Source of the DNA: Acidobacteriota bacterium
Lineage (GTDB): Bacteria; Acidobacteriota; Thermoanaerobaculia; Gp7-AA8; JAHWKK01
DNA length: 64,000 nucleotides
Direction of reading: 5' to 3'
Assembly: GCA_019347945.1 (NCBI GenBank)
Contig: JAHWKK010000005.1
Location: 1-64,000, forward strand
Below are positions 31,334 through 37,426 of the stretch, in pieces. The position numbers were made by a program, and so were the translations under genes. Under the pieces are notes generated by a model, which was not told where the DNA came from, searched no databases, and was given only the letters and a program-made list of their open reading frames with translations. The first letter of the stretch is position 1, and each line of letters starts with the position of its first letter.

Positions 31334-33490
31334 GTGAAGAAGCTCCAGTCCATCGATCCCCGATATTTTCAGATCGCATCGCTCGGAGCGCTCGTGGCGT
31401 GGGGCGGGCTCGGGCTCGGCCTCGATCTTCGGTTCGCGCATGTCGCAGCCGCATTCGCCGGCGCCATCGGCGCCCAGGCGATCGGGTCACGGTGGGCAGG
31501 AATCCCGTTCGAAGCGAAAAGCGCGTTCATCTCCGCGCTCTCGATCATCGTTCTGCTGCGAGCGGAGAGCTGGCTGACGATCCTGCTGGCCGCCGGGCTG
31601 GCGGTCGGATCGAAGTTCATCCTGAGGATCGATGGCCGGCACGTCTTCAATCCGACAAACATCGCAATCGTTGCGGTGCTCGCCACCGGGTGGGACGGCT
31701 GGGTTTCGAGCGGCCGGTGGGGCAGCGAGACGTGGACGGTTTTTCTCATCGCGTGCGGCGGAGTACTCGTGGTCCATCGCGCTGCGCGATCAGACGTCAC
31801 ATGGGCGTTTCTGCTCTCCTGGACGGCTCTCGTCTTCGGACGTGCAATCTATCTCGGGGACCCGCTCGCCATCCCGCTCCATCAGCTTCAGAACGGCACC
31901 CTTCTGATCTTTTCGTTTTTCATGATCTCCGACCCGAAGACCACACCCGACTCCCGGATCGCGAGAATTCTCTGGGCCGTGGCAGTCGCCGCGCTCGCCG
32001 GCTATCTGCGCTTTCACCATCAGCAACCAAACGCGCTCCTTCTGGCGCTCGCCTTTTCCTCGCCGTTCGTTCCGGTACTGAACCGTCTGATCCGAGCTCG
32101 TCGTTTCGAGTGGCCCGGTGACGACTCAACCGCTCCCGCTCGGCGTGGAGCCCTGCTCACACCGCTTCACTTCCCGAAAGGAGATCTTTCCATGATTCGA
32201 ATCTCGTTGATGTTCCTCGTGTCACTCACTCTGGCGATGCCAGCGTTCGCATTCTGCGGCTTCTATGTCGGCAAGGCAGGATCGAATCTTTACAACAATG
32301 CCTCGAAAGCCGTCCTGGTCCGCGATGGCGATCGGACCGTGATCACGATGGCTAACGATTACGAGGGGGATCTCGACGAGTTCGCGATCGTCATTCCGGT
32401 TCCGACCGTCATTCAAAGAAGCCAGATCAATCTCGCCGATCCGGCGCTGCTCGAACGGCTCGATACATTTACGGCACCCAGGCTCGTCGAGTACCACGAC
32501 GAGAATCCATGTCAGATCGCACTGAGACGGCAGCAGTCACCGTTCCCGGCCACGGCGAAGATGGCCGACGCGTCTTCCGTGAGAGAAGAAGCACTCGGCG
32601 TGACGGTCGAGGCTTCGTACAGCATCGGCGAGTACGAGATCGTCGTTCTCTCCGCGAAACAGAGTGACGGCCTTCAGACCTGGCTCCGGGAAAACGGCTA
32701 CCGGATTCCCGAGGGAGCGACCGCCACGCTTCAGAGCTACATCCGGCAGAATACGAAGTTCTTCGTCGCCAGGGTCAACATCGAGGAACAGAGACGTCTC
32801 GGATTCACCTATCTGCGGCCGATCCAGATCGCGTTCGAGACGCCGAAGTTCATGCTCCCGATCCGCCTCGGTACGGTCAATGCCAGAGGCCCCCAGGATC
32901 TGATCATCCACACGCTCACTCGAAAAGGTCGCGTCGAGACGACGAACTATCGGACCGTCAGAATTCCGACCGACGCCGAGGTTCCGATGTTCGTACGAGA
33001 TGAATTCGGCGAGTTTTACTCGGCGATGTTCGATCGCCAGGTCCGCGAGGAGCGGATGCGGGCGGTGTTCCTCGAATATGCATGGAACGCCGCCTGGTGC
33101 GATCCATGCCCGACAAACCCACTCACCCGCGATGAGCTCCGCGCACTCGGTGTCTTCTGGCTCGACGGCGGAGGCCCCGACGTCTTCGTGACGCGGCTCC
33201 ACGTCCGCTACGACGCCCGCTCCTTTCCGGAGGATCTGGTCTTCCAGGAGACGAACGACCAGTCGACCTTTCAGGCCCGTTACATCGTCCGTCATCCGTG
33301 GGAGGGACGCGAATGGTGCTCGGCAACCGATCGGTATCGTCGCGAGCTCGCCGAACGGGAACGGCTGCAGGCGAGAACCGCAGCGCAGCTGACCGGATGG
33401 CCGGTCGAAGCGATCTTCCGCAGGATGGACATCCGTGGAATCGACGACGAGCAGAAGCCCTGGTGGGAACAGCTCTGGGACCGATTCTGA
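31334..33490 (+). CDS. RnfD/NqrB-like membrane protein fused in frame to a secreted DUF2330 protein
   Basis: One uninterrupted 718-codon frame from GTG 31334 (SD AAAGGGA). Residues 1-265 have about eight hydrophobic segments with 'NPTNIAIVAVLA' and 'NGTLLIFSFFMISDPKTTP', the signature of RnfD/NqrB-type membrane subunits. No other rnf or nqr gene is near. Residue 287 is a methionine beginning 'MIRISLMFLVSLTLAMPAFA', a complete signal peptide with its own SD, followed by a DUF2330 domain ('FCGFYVGKAGSNLYNNASKA' onwards, conserved Cys residues) to the end. The two parts are probably made as separate proteins from internal initiation at 32192, with the missing stop codon an oddity. A true fusion would place a signal-peptide-like helix as a further membrane segment. 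Function of DUF2330 is unknown. Confidence 0.8.
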   Translation: MKKLQSIDPRYFQIASLGALVAWGGLGLGLDLRFAHVAAAFAGAIGAQAIGSRWAGIPFEAKSAFISALSIIVLLRAESWLTILLAAGLAVGSKFILRIDGRHVFNPTNIAIVAVLATGWDGWVSSGRWGSETWTVFLIACGGVLVVHRAARSDVTWAFLLSWTALVFGRAIYLGDPLAIPLHQLQNGTLLIFSFFMISDPKTTPDSRIARILWAVAVAALAGYLRFHHQQPNALLLALAFSSPFVPVLNRLIRARRFEWPGDDSTAPARRGALLTPLHFPKGDLSMIRISLMFLVSLTLAMPAFAFCGFYVGKAGSNLYNNASKAVLVRDGDRTVITMANDYEGDLDEFAIVIPVPTVIQRSQINLADPALLERLDTFTAPRLVEYHDENPCQIALRRQQSPFPATAKMADASSVREEALGVTVEASYSIGEYEIVVLSAKQSDGLQTWLRENGYRIPEGATATLQSYIRQNTKFFVARVNIEEQRRLGFTYLRPIQIAFETPKFMLPIRLGTVNARGPQDLIIHTLTRKGRVETTNYRTVRIPTDAEVPMFVRDEFGEFYSAMFDRQVREERMRAVFLEYAWNAAWCDPCPTNPLTRDELRALGVFWLDGGGPDVFVTRLHVRYDARSFPEDLVFQETNDQSTFQARYIVRHPWEGREWCSATDRYRRELAERERLQARTAAQLTGWPVEAIFRRMDIRGIDDEQKPWWEQLWDRF
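32177..32184 (+). promoter_or_regulatory. Internal SD for the DUF2330 start at ATG 32192
   Basis: AAAGGAGA lies 7 bp before the in-frame ATG 32192 that begins a signal peptide. It is stronger than the SD of the upstream gene. Confidence 0.7.
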
Positions 33491-33741: not shown

Positions 33742-34710
33742 ATGAAGGACACCGCTTCGGTACCGACGCTCGAGGCGATTCGCCAGGCTGCTTCGACTCT
33801 CGAGGGCATCGTCGTCCGGACTCCGCTCGTCCGGCTCGAAGGGGATTTCGAGGGACGTGAGATCTGGCTGAAGCTGGAGAACCTCCAGCCGATCAATGCT
33901 TTCAAGATCCGGGGCGCGGTCAACGCGATTGCCGAGCTCGACGAAAACAGACGGGCGCAGGGCGTCTGGACGATCAGCGCGGGAAACGCGGGACAGGGTG
34001 TCGCGTGGGCCGCCCGGCGGTATGGAATTCCCTGCACGGTCGTCGTCATCGAGACCGCGCCCGATACGAAGGTCCGGCGGATGGAGCAGCTCGGAGCCGA
34101 GCTCGTCCGCGCTCCCTTCGACGAGTGCTGGCAGGCGATGCAGGATCGCCGGTTTCCCGGCGTGGAGGGGGCGTTCATCCATCCCTTCGACGACGATGCA
34201 TTCATTACCGGCAACGCGACGATCGGTCTCGAGATCCTCGACGACCTTCCGGAGGTTGACGTCGTCTGTGGCGCGATCGGCGGAGGGGGGCTGATGGCGG
34301 GTGTGGGTGCGGCGATTCGTCCCCTTCGAAGCGACGTCACGATTCTCGGCGCTGAACCCGAGACCGCTGCCCCGCTGGCCCTCTCGTTCGAGCGGGGGAG
34401 TCCTCAGGTTTTCGACCGGTGGGAAAAGTCGTTCGTCGATGGAGCCGGCGGCAAGAGCGTCTTTCCCTCGATGTGGGATCGCCTCCACCCCGTTCTCGAC
34501 GGGTCGGTCGTCGTCAGCCTCGAAGAGGTCAGGGAAGCGATCCGAACGATCGCGGAGCGCGCACGCGTGATCAGCGAAGGCGCTGGAGCACTCCCGGTCG
34601 CCGCGGCGATCGCCGGTCGGACCGGCGGGCGGAAGATCGTCGCCATCGTGTCCGGCGGCAACATCGATCTTCGCGATCTCGCCGGAATCCTGACCGGATC
34701 AGCCCGCTGA
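33742..34710 (+). CDS. Threonine/serine dehydratase family, PLP enzyme
   Basis: 322 residues, fold type II PLP enzyme. Lys55 in 'INAFKIRGAVNAIAEL' is the Schiff-base lysine, 'SAGNAGQGVAWAA' the substrate loop (usual form SxGNHxQ; here Ala replaces His), and 'GAIGGGGLMAGVG' the phosphate-binding loop. It lacks the C-terminal ACT regulatory domain of biosynthetic IlvA, so a catabolic threonine/serine deaminase or a serine racemase is more likely. The 3' end overlaps the convergent VOC gene by 12 bp. Confidence 0.88.
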   Translation: MKDTASVPTLEAIRQAASTLEGIVVRTPLVRLEGDFEGREIWLKLENLQPINAFKIRGAVNAIAELDENRRAQGVWTISAGNAGQGVAWAARRYGIPCTVVVIETAPDTKVRRMEQLGAELVRAPFDECWQAMQDRRFPGVEGAFIHPFDDDAFITGNATIGLEILDDLPEVDVVCGAIGGGGLMAGVGAAIRPLRSDVTILGAEPETAAPLALSFERGSPQVFDRWEKSFVDGAGGKSVFPSMWDRLHPVLDGSVVVSLEEVREAIRTIAERARVISEGAGALPVAAAIAGRTGGRKIVAIVSGGNIDLRDLAGILTGSAR

Positions 34711-35148
34711 ATCGCGAACTCTCCGTCGGATCTCTTCCTCTTCGAGATCTTCCGTCCTGGCGGCAATCGACCAGATGTGTCCGAACGGATCCTCGACCTC
34801 TCCGAATCGTTCGCCCCACGCGGTGTCCTGGATCGGGACCACCACTTTCGCACCCTCGCTCAAAGCTCTGGAAAACATCCGATCCGGGTCTGTGCACCAG
34901 AGCTTCAGAACGACCGGCGTTCCACCGAGGGATCGCGGATCCGACTCCCGCTCCATCGTGTCCGCGACCTGAAAGAGCGATTCGCCGATTCTCAGCTCCG
35001 CGTGAAGCACGCCCTGCCCCATCGGATCTTCGATCACCGAGATCCGCTTTGCTCCGAAGGCACGCTCGTAATACTCGATGGCTCTCCTGCCGCCTTCGAC
35101 GAGGAGCCGGGGAACAAGAACCGGACCAGACGGGTCATCCACGATCAC
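34699..35148 (-). CDS. VOC (glyoxalase/PhnB-like) family protein
   Basis: 149 residues from GTG 35148, chosen for its 4-bp GTGA overlap with the channel gene stop. 'PRLLVEGGRRAIEYYERAFG', 'LHAELRIGESLFQVAD' and 'GERFGEVEDPFGHIWSIA' are the paired beta-alpha-beta-beta-beta modules of PhnB-like VOC proteins, which bind small substrates or antibiotics. Substrate is unknown. It is translationally coupled to the ion channel upstream, an unexpected pairing. A longer reading upstream overlaps the channel and was rejected. Confidence 0.85.
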   Translation of the reverse strand: MIVDDPSGPVLVPRLLVEGGRRAIEYYERAFGAKRISVIEDPMGQGVLHAELRIGESLFQVADTMERESDPRSLGGTPVVLKLWCTDPDRMFSRALSEGAKVVVPIQDTAWGERFGEVEDPFGHIWSIAARTEDLEEEEIRRRVRDSAG

Positions 35149-36230
35149 TGCTCCTCGTCGCCGAGATACCGAATTCTGATCGCCCTGAACTCTTCCCCTT
35201 CGATCAGCTCCAGAATCTTCCGGTTGACGGGCTCCCTGAGCGGGCTCCCCGAAGGAAATGCGATCCCGTAAGTCTGCAGGCCCAGATTCTGGTCGAGCAC
35301 TCGGAGATCCTCGAACCGGTGGCGCGACATATATCGCAGGATGGGCGAGTCGTAGACGACCGCATCGAGCTCTCCGGCGCTGAGCTCGTCCAGGGCCTCT
35401 TCGATCCTCGAAAAGCCTCGATGGCGGATCGCGCGGGCGGTGAGCCATTCATTGCTGGTCGAGCCGGATACCGTACCGACGGTCACGCCCGGAAGGTCCT
35501 CGGGTCCGTCGATGCTCCCCTGCAATTCGTTCAGCGTGAGCGCCGAAGCCATCGACGCCGTCAGCGTCGAAATGGCGATGAGGCCTGCCACCATCCACAC
35601 CAGAGCGATGATTCTTCCGCCCGAGGTGACCGGTGACTTGTCCCCGTATCCCACCGTAGTCATGGTGACCGCGGACCACCAGAGTCCCGACCAGAGTCCT
35701 TCTCGGGCTGAGCCTCCGAACTGATCCGGATTCCTTCGTCTTTCGAACAGCCAGACGAGAGCGCCGACGACGAAAGCCACCAGAATGATCATGCCGAGAG
35801 TCTTCAGCAATTGCTTCGAGAAGAGTGCTCTGACCAGCACGAGCGGCGTATCTTTCGCGCCCGACTTCACTGCGATGCCCAGTCCGCTCGCATAATAAGG
35901 ATGGCTGAAGTCGACTCGCCTCTCCCGTTCTTCGGTGATTGTCAGAGCCGATACAGCAAGGTCCAGATCATTCGTCTCGACCCCGGAGATGAGCCCGTCG
36001 AGATCCCTTTCGACATACCGGAATTCGATGCCGGCTTCGTTCGCGATCTCGTTCCAGAGGTCGATACTCATTCCGGTCCATTCGTCTCCGGCACGCATAG
36101 CAAACGGAACGGCCTCCCTTGTACCAACCACTAATGGTTCGGACGAGGAGATCTCAGGCGGATCTTCTCCCGTCTGCGCCTGAAGGGCAGAACTGAAGAC
36201 AATGGTGAGAATCAGAATGACGTTCCTCAT
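35145..36230 (-). CDS. GluR0-type ligand-gated potassium channel (ionotropic glutamate receptor-like)
   Basis: 361 residues. Signal peptide (1-19, LQAQ). S1 half of a periplasmic binding domain (33-125) includes 'ALTITEERERRVDFSHPYY' with Arg102, the ligand-carboxylate arginine position. Then M1 (about 142-163), a pore helix and the potassium selectivity filter 'TMTTVGYGD' (TVGYGD, 192-197), M3 (about 207-231), and the S2 half (239-355) with 'VVYDSPILRY' (Asp294 near the alpha-amino-group position). This is the layout of cyanobacterial GluR0: bilobed amino-acid sensor split by a K+ pore. No M4 is present. A perfect TATAAT lies 9 bp upstream of the ATG. The downstream VOC gene is coupled. Confidence 0.9.
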   Translation of the reverse strand: MRNVILILTIVFSSALQAQTGEDPPEISSSEPLVVGTREAVPFAMRAGDEWTGMSIDLWNEIANEAGIEFRYVERDLDGLISGVETNDLDLAVSALTITEERERRVDFSHPYYASGLGIAVKSGAKDTPLVLVRALFSKQLLKTLGMIILVAFVVGALVWLFERRRNPDQFGGSAREGLWSGLWWSAVTMTTVGYGDKSPVTSGGRIIALVWMVAGLIAISTLTASMASALTLNELQGSIDGPEDLPGVTVGTVSGSTSNEWLTARAIRHRGFSRIEEALDELSAGELDAVVYDSPILRYMSRHRFEDLRVLDQNLGLQTYGIAFPSGSPLREPVNRKILELIEGEEFRAIRIRYLGDEEQ

Positions 36231-36280: not shown

Positions 36281-36901
36281 GTGCAATTTATTTTTGACGG
36301 TCCGGAGGCCGCGCCGGCCACTCTGATCCTCGCTCATGGCGCCGGTGCTCCAATGGATTCACCGTTCATGAACGACATCGCCTCCGGCATCAGCAAAGAA
36401 GGGATACGCGTTGCACGCTTCGAATTCCCCTACATGGCCCAAAGGCGAACCGGTAAGAAGAAGGGTCCTGACCGCCCCGCCATTCTCGAGGCGACATGGA
36501 TCGATGCAATTGCAAGCCTCGAACAGGCAGGCAGGACCTTCATCGGTGGTAAGTCGATGGGAGGGCGGATCGCAACCATGGTCGCGGACGATTCGGTCGC
36601 GGCAGGAGTCATCTGCTACGGATACCCCTTTCATCCCCCCGGCAAGCCGCAACAGACACGAACCTCACACCTCGAGACTCTGCGGGCTCCGACGCTGATC
36701 CTCCAGGGGACGAGGGATCCATTCGGGAAGCCGGAGGAGGTCGCTCGCTACGCACTCTCCGACGCCATCCGGGTCGAGTGGCTCGAAGGAGGCGATCACT
36801 CTTACAAAGCCCCCGCTCGCGCAGCCAATTCGACCAGAGACCTGATCGCTATGGCGATCGAAAGGTCGATTGCCTTCATCAGACGAACACTTTCCGATTG
36901 A
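36281..36901 (+). CDS. Alpha/beta hydrolase of the KANL3/TEX30 (COG3571) type
   Basis: 206 residues from GTG 36281. The nucleophile elbow is 'FIGGKSMGGRIATM', the acid 'GTRDPFGKPEE' and the base 'GGDHSYKAP', giving an apparently intact Ser-Asp-His triad. The N-terminus 'LILAHGAGAPMDSPFM' with the 'RRTGKKKGPDRP' insert is typical of this family. The substrate is not known. No membrane or signal segment, so it is cytosolic. Divergent from the channel over 50 bp. Confidence 0.85.
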   Translation: MQFIFDGPEAAPATLILAHGAGAPMDSPFMNDIASGISKEGIRVARFEFPYMAQRRTGKKKGPDRPAILEATWIDAIASLEQAGRTFIGGKSMGGRIATMVADDSVAAGVICYGYPFHPPGKPQQTRTSHLETLRAPTLILQGTRDPFGKPEEVARYALSDAIRVEWLEGGDHSYKAPARAANSTRDLIAMAIERSIAFIRRTLSD

Positions 36902-36982: not shown

Positions 36983-37426
36983 ATGAATCTCACCGAGGCG
37001 CAGGCACATTACGTAGTTGAAAAGATGCTCGAGGATCGCAAGATCTCACAACGAGACGTCGATCGCTATCTCAAGAGCATGCATTCGGATATCGATGATC
37101 TCGAGCGCCGGCTCGATCGATTGCGAGAGGCCGCCGGCTCCTCAGCCGGGTCCTCTTCAAAAACGCGCAAGCGTAGATCCGGAACCGGAAAGAAACGCGG
37201 CAGAAAGAAGCGCGCCACTGGCAAAACCTCCAAAGCCGGCAGTGGAAAGAAAAAAGGGAAGAAACGAAATCTTTCGCCCGAAGTGAAAGCGAGCCGGGCG
37301 CTTCAGGGGAGATACATCTCGAACCTTCGACGTTTTTCCGGGCGCAAGAAGGCCGATTTTCAGAAAATCGCCAGGGAACAGGGCCGCGAAGAAGCGCTTC
37401 GTCAGATGCAGGCCGCCAAGTCCTGA
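36983..37426 (+). CDS. Basic, histone-like hypothetical protein
   Basis: 147 residues, not recognised as a named family. Residues 1-48 form an acidic/basic coiled-coil-like helix ('MHSDIDDLERRLDRLREAAG'). Residues 50-92 are a low-complexity Ser/Lys/Arg linker (KKRGRKKRATGKTSKAG) like histone H1 tails. Residues 93-147 end 'GRYISNLRRFSGRKKADFQK' and 'IAREQGREEALRQM', reminiscent of small DNA-binding modules. A nucleoid-associated role is inferred. It has a good SD (AAGGA), its own upstream TATGAT at about 36928, and a strong terminator after it, so it is a single-gene unit. Confidence 0.75.
   Translation: MNLTEAQAHYVVEKMLEDRKISQRDVDRYLKSMHSDIDDLERRLDRLREAAGSSAGSSSKTRKRRSGTGKKRGRKKRATGKTSKAGSGKKKGKKRNLSPEVKASRALQGRYISNLRRFSGRKKADFQKIAREQGREEALRQMQAAKS

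Follow-up and report, generated by a model that had tools for sequence, protein, structure and literature searches.

A predicted K+-filter glutamate receptor of the GluR0 kind encoded in an Acidobacteriota genome

Does the minus-strand gene at 35145-36230 of the DNA studied here (the window, a 64,000-nucleotide stretch of an Acidobacteriota genome) encode an amino-acid-gated potassium channel, and can its ligand and its role be read from the protein or from the genes that surround it? An earlier note, made from the sequence, had called the product a GluR0-type ionotropic glutamate receptor with a split binding domain, an assignment that domain matches, ligand-site residues and fold comparison all bear out. 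In our reading, the product is very probably a GluR0-like K+ channel, tetrameric and gated by amino acids, its tetrameric state, orientation, ligand, conductance and role being extrapolated from better studied relatives.

The gene and its protein

The open reading frame, for which the earlier note had given no strand, lies on the minus strand and runs from ATG to TGA over 361 codons without internal stops; the plus strand of the same interval has internal stops. Its GC content (59%) and GC3 (72%) are near the values of the neighbouring genes, so that base composition gives no sign of recent transfer. The gene is real and intact. Judged from its sequence, the domain layout of the 361-residue product is that of a two-helix prokaryotic ionotropic glutamate receptor: S1 (residues about 31-125), M1 (139-163), the pore helix and filter (175-197), M2 (203-234) and S2 (about 236-358). 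Pfam finds a single SBP_bac_3 match (4.8e-27, residues 33-357) interrupted by channel domains, with Ion_trans_2 at 149-232 (2.2e-15), and Lig_chan at 147-247 (2.6e-15); Lig_chan-Glu_bd also matches (7.1e-12), and hydropathy has two peaks above 1.6, at 144-162 and 207-225.

The residues expected of such a receptor lie where the earlier note had placed them or implied them to be. R102, within the motif LTITEERE (R102-E103, 35922..35927, minus strand), and D294, within AVVYD (Y293-D294, 35349..35354, minus strand), are found in 83 of 83 aligned homologues and correspond to the Arg and Asp that in relatives hold the carboxylate and the amino group of the ligand, respectively (PMC2950845); their role here is assigned by homology. 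A further motif, SGST, occupies residues 255-258. The K+ selectivity filter, TVGYGD (residues 192-197, 35640..35657, minus strand), sits within TTVGYGD, and each of its six residues is conserved in 96-100% of the 83 sequences. The run WWSAVTMTTVGYGD is invariant in a smaller alignment of 36 rows (A1). As to the N-terminus, the same note had described a signal peptide, and the sequence reads as one by eye. The protein starts MRNVILILTIVFSSALQAQ, with a short charged start, a hydrophobic core VILILTIVFSSAL and then LQA before residue 19, so that residues 1-18 (36177..36230, minus strand) are a probable signal peptide.

Fold, ligand and mode of action

A single-chain AlphaFold model built from alignment A1 has a mean pLDDT of 87.4, with most of the ligand domain above 94, and contains a helix at residues 3-15, two transmembrane helices and a pore helix. 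The top-ranked Foldseek matches are AMPA-receptor chains comprising both the ligand-binding and the transmembrane domain (E 5.9e-23, about 370 columns, 24-26% identity). VIA-align places first the ligand core of Nostoc punctiforme GluR0 with bound glutamate (2pyy; Z 30.2, rmsd 1.5, 213 residues aligned, 37% identity), which also came first by sequence (1.5e-34 in one search, 5.3e-55 in another), and gives Synechocystis GluR0 (1ii5) a Z of 29.7, with an rmsd of 1.8 and 26% identity over 217 aligned residues.

It could be supposed that the protein is simply the component of an ABC transporter that binds amino acids in the periplasm, misread as a channel, as S1 and S2 are SBP_bac_3 and proteins of this sort frequently carry an ABC binding-protein annotation (PMC2950845). 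An ABC binding protein would, however, require an uninterrupted, pore-free SBP, and in this case both Pfam and the model have a pore module inserted in the SBP; indeed, conservation in the family alignments is strongest in the transmembrane helices, the pore helix and TTVGYGD, all of which lie inside that domain, and there are no permease or ATPase genes among the neighbours examined. We consider this reading extremely improbable. That the gene might be a degenerate or non-conducting relic could be suspected from its rarity in its own phylum (four of 297 genomes), yet a stop-free frame, ligand and filter positions that have been kept and high model confidence make that very unlikely too.

What the receptor binds is the harder question, and the fold does not settle it. 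Glutamine-binding proteins 8eyz and 9p4d tie with the GluR0 ligand domains in VIA-align Z, and 4f3p and 1wdn tie with or come near GluR0, so glutamate is not singled out by fold; the ligand domains of the rotifer receptor AvGluR1 bound to serine or phenylalanine are also close, and the fold therefore gives no ligand range. The same channel architecture might well be opened by glutamine instead, by some small neutral amino acid or by a solute that resembles an amino acid, a possibility that is substantial even if we do not favor it: besides the standing of 8eyz, 4f3p and 1wdn in the fold comparison, the best partial NCBIfam match is GlnH (5.4e-39, below the family cut-off), and hydrophobic amino acids are agonists of AvGluR1 (PMC12226733). 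Against it, the best single fold match is glutamate-bound 2pyy, though tied, and position 38 is basic, being R in the window receptor and in 2pyy and K or R in 78 of the 83 homologues, whereas Asp occupies it in the glutamine-binding proteins 4f3p and 8hnj. R102 and D294, which would grip the backbone of the amino acid, are both present; the basic R38 would favor an acidic side chain such as that of glutamate, and the likeliest ligand appears to be glutamate or some other amino acid whose side chain is acidic or polar.

By homology, we infer that the receptor is gated by amino acids and conducts K+. Four subunits would form one K+ pore, as in GluR0, with the split S1/S2 clamshell in the periplasm. 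An L-amino acid would be held by its carboxylate at R102 and by its amino group at D294, the clamshell would close on it, and closure would pull on the M2 helix of the inverted two-helix pore and allow K+ to flow. Synechocystis GluR0 lets E. coli LB2003 take up K+, and it buffers cell volume, with slower shrinkage after KCl upshock (PMC13099474); by analogy, the role of the window receptor would probably be the fast adjustment of membrane potential or turgor upon an external change.

Distribution and genomic neighborhood

The earlier note had implied that the receptor's occurrence in a non-cyanobacterium is a rarity. This does not hold up: glutamate-receptor channels of prokaryotes were already described by Ger et al. 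(2010; PMC2950845) from proteobacteria in addition to cyanobacteria, so that presence in a non-cyanobacterium is to be expected, and our scan found K+-filter members in many phyla. Searching species genomes with the receptor protein gave 551 pattern matches, and in 371 of them the stretch encodes a relative. Of these 371, the best 80 are 40-52% identical to it over most of their length and fall under about 13 phylum labels, none of them cyanobacterial. The alignment of 83 homologues over the length of the receptor is far beyond chance, and the receptor as found here belongs to an already described family that is widespread in bacteria.

The window's genome yielded no 16S rRNA, and its phylum was therefore judged from rpoB. 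This gene matches that of one named Acidobacteria genome (RI_231) at 69% in a single continuous piece, the same value as for a genome listed under the same phylum (G088), whereas matches to genomes of other phyla are broken into pieces of about 46-75% each, which makes Acidobacteriota the most likely source. Within Acidobacteriota the receptor gene is rare, at four of 297 genomes. A relative of the same order (G001) has an rpoB 87% identical to that of the window genome and a receptor that is just 39% identical, while receptors of Planctomycetota, Omnitrophota and others among the best 80 of the 371 relatives reach 47-52%. In a quick tree the window receptor has a long branch of its own and no supported partner, away from the receptors of G001 and of another genome (G033), which pair with each other (SH-aLRT 99). 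Phylum labels are mixed over the tree, requiring 24 changes where 12 would be the minimum. The distribution is compatible with loss, with paralogy and with horizontal transfer; transfer of prokaryotic glutamate-receptor genes between proteobacteria and cyanobacteria was already proposed by Ger et al. (2010; PMC2950845). The tree also contains two receptor copies with identical rows (L027 and L028) from distant sites of one chromosome, that of Deltaproteobacteria bin85 (CP070652.1).

The nearest gene on the same strand encodes a VOC/glyoxalase-superfamily protein (34699..35151, minus strand; Pfam Glyoxalase, 5.3e-11), and the junction sequence offers it two starts: a GTG that overlaps the receptor's TGA (GTGA), or a GTG 2 nt past it with GAGGAG 8 nt upstream. 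The two genes are probably co-transcribed. The translational coupling that the earlier note had asserted is plausible. No relative of the VOC protein was found near the homologues examined, and its gene is not a conserved partner of the receptor. Beyond this pair lie a PLP-dependent enzyme (33742-34710), on the opposite strand and convergent to the receptor, and an alpha/beta hydrolase (36281-36901), divergent from it. When these three and other neighbors were compared with all open reading frames around the homologues (6 kb of flank at many loci, less on some shorter contigs), no window neighbor recurred beside homologues, and an operon-based function for the receptor was rejected. The larger clusters in the comparison consisted of frames that overlap the receptor gene, in antisense or in another reading frame, and the remaining ones were shared within small groups, for example in Alcanivorax. 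The proposed tie to neighboring amino-acid catabolism is weak: the PLP enzyme runs toward the receptor from the opposite strand, no homologue examined has a relative of it or of the VOC gene alongside, and amino-acid catabolism as the receptor's context is not supported.

Elsewhere in the genome the only further matches are one to SBP_bac_3 (G000:C19:66577-67269) and two to Ion_trans_2 (G000:C3:99957-100181 and 161995-162216), the channel at 99957 carrying a TVGFGD filter. Two further frames in the window deserve mention in their own right. The plus-strand frame at 31334-33490 combines an NQR2/RnfD/RnfE-like part (about residues 130-258) with a DUF2330 part (303-637) and has the signal-peptide-like MIRISLMFLVSLTLAMPAFA between them, so that it would be one fused gene or a pair of in-frame genes; that at 36983-37426, also on the plus strand, encodes a 147-residue protein with a Lys/Arg-rich middle and no Pfam matches.

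Relation to known receptors

The window receptor alone adds little, and its interest is that of its family. The functional work that we found on K+-selective bacterial glutamate receptors concerns cyanobacteria, and Ger et al. (2010) was the sole study of members from outside cyanobacteria that came up in a literature search drawing mostly on papers available without subscription. More than 80 intact homologues in many phyla offer easy material for work on ligand, conductance and physiology outside cyanobacteria, with cultured strains including Thiocapsa marina, Marichromatium gracile, Luteolibacter pohnpeiensis and Alcanivorax. It is tempting to speculate that the K+-filter receptors outside cyanobacteria make up a large and mostly unstudied group, spread widely by transfer and with a ligand preference of its own, marked by the basic position 38, and serve as a general sensor coupling amino acids to membrane potential, although we hold this broader idea to be doubtful.

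Among known receptors, the sequence features place the window protein with the K+-type prokaryotic glutamate receptors, the "Group 1" of Ger et al. (2010), a set of 12 proteins founded on Synechocystis GluR0 in which S1 and S2 flank two transmembrane helices and a K+-filter P-loop and the ligand site has an Arg and an Asp (PMC2950845). The window receptor is built likewise: its SBP halves flank the pore in Pfam and in the model, hydropathy and the model helices give two transmembrane segments around TVGYGD, and R102 and D294 align with the segments of GluR0 that Ger et al. show. With GluR0 of Synechocystis PCC 6803 (slr1257), the founding K+-selective member, it shares the order S1-M1-P-M2-S2, a K+-type filter, the ligand-site Arg and Asp and the fold of the ligand domain; it differs in being non-cyanobacterial, and in the stretches compared identities are limited to 13 over 43 columns in S1 and 20 over about 69 in S2. 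The closest solved ligand domain is that of the Nostoc punctiforme homologue 2pyy, bound to L-glutamate and sharing the basic residue 38, and as 2pyy is the ligand-binding core only, the likeness covers the ligand domain. Finally, the ligand-domain fold is held in common with AMPA and kainate receptors and the K+-selective AvGluR1, and in the AMPA case the similarity extends over the whole chain of ligand-binding and transmembrane domains. In contrast to all three, however, the window receptor lacks an N-terminal domain, M4 and a C-terminal domain, and its K+-type filter is unlike that of AMPA and kainate receptors.
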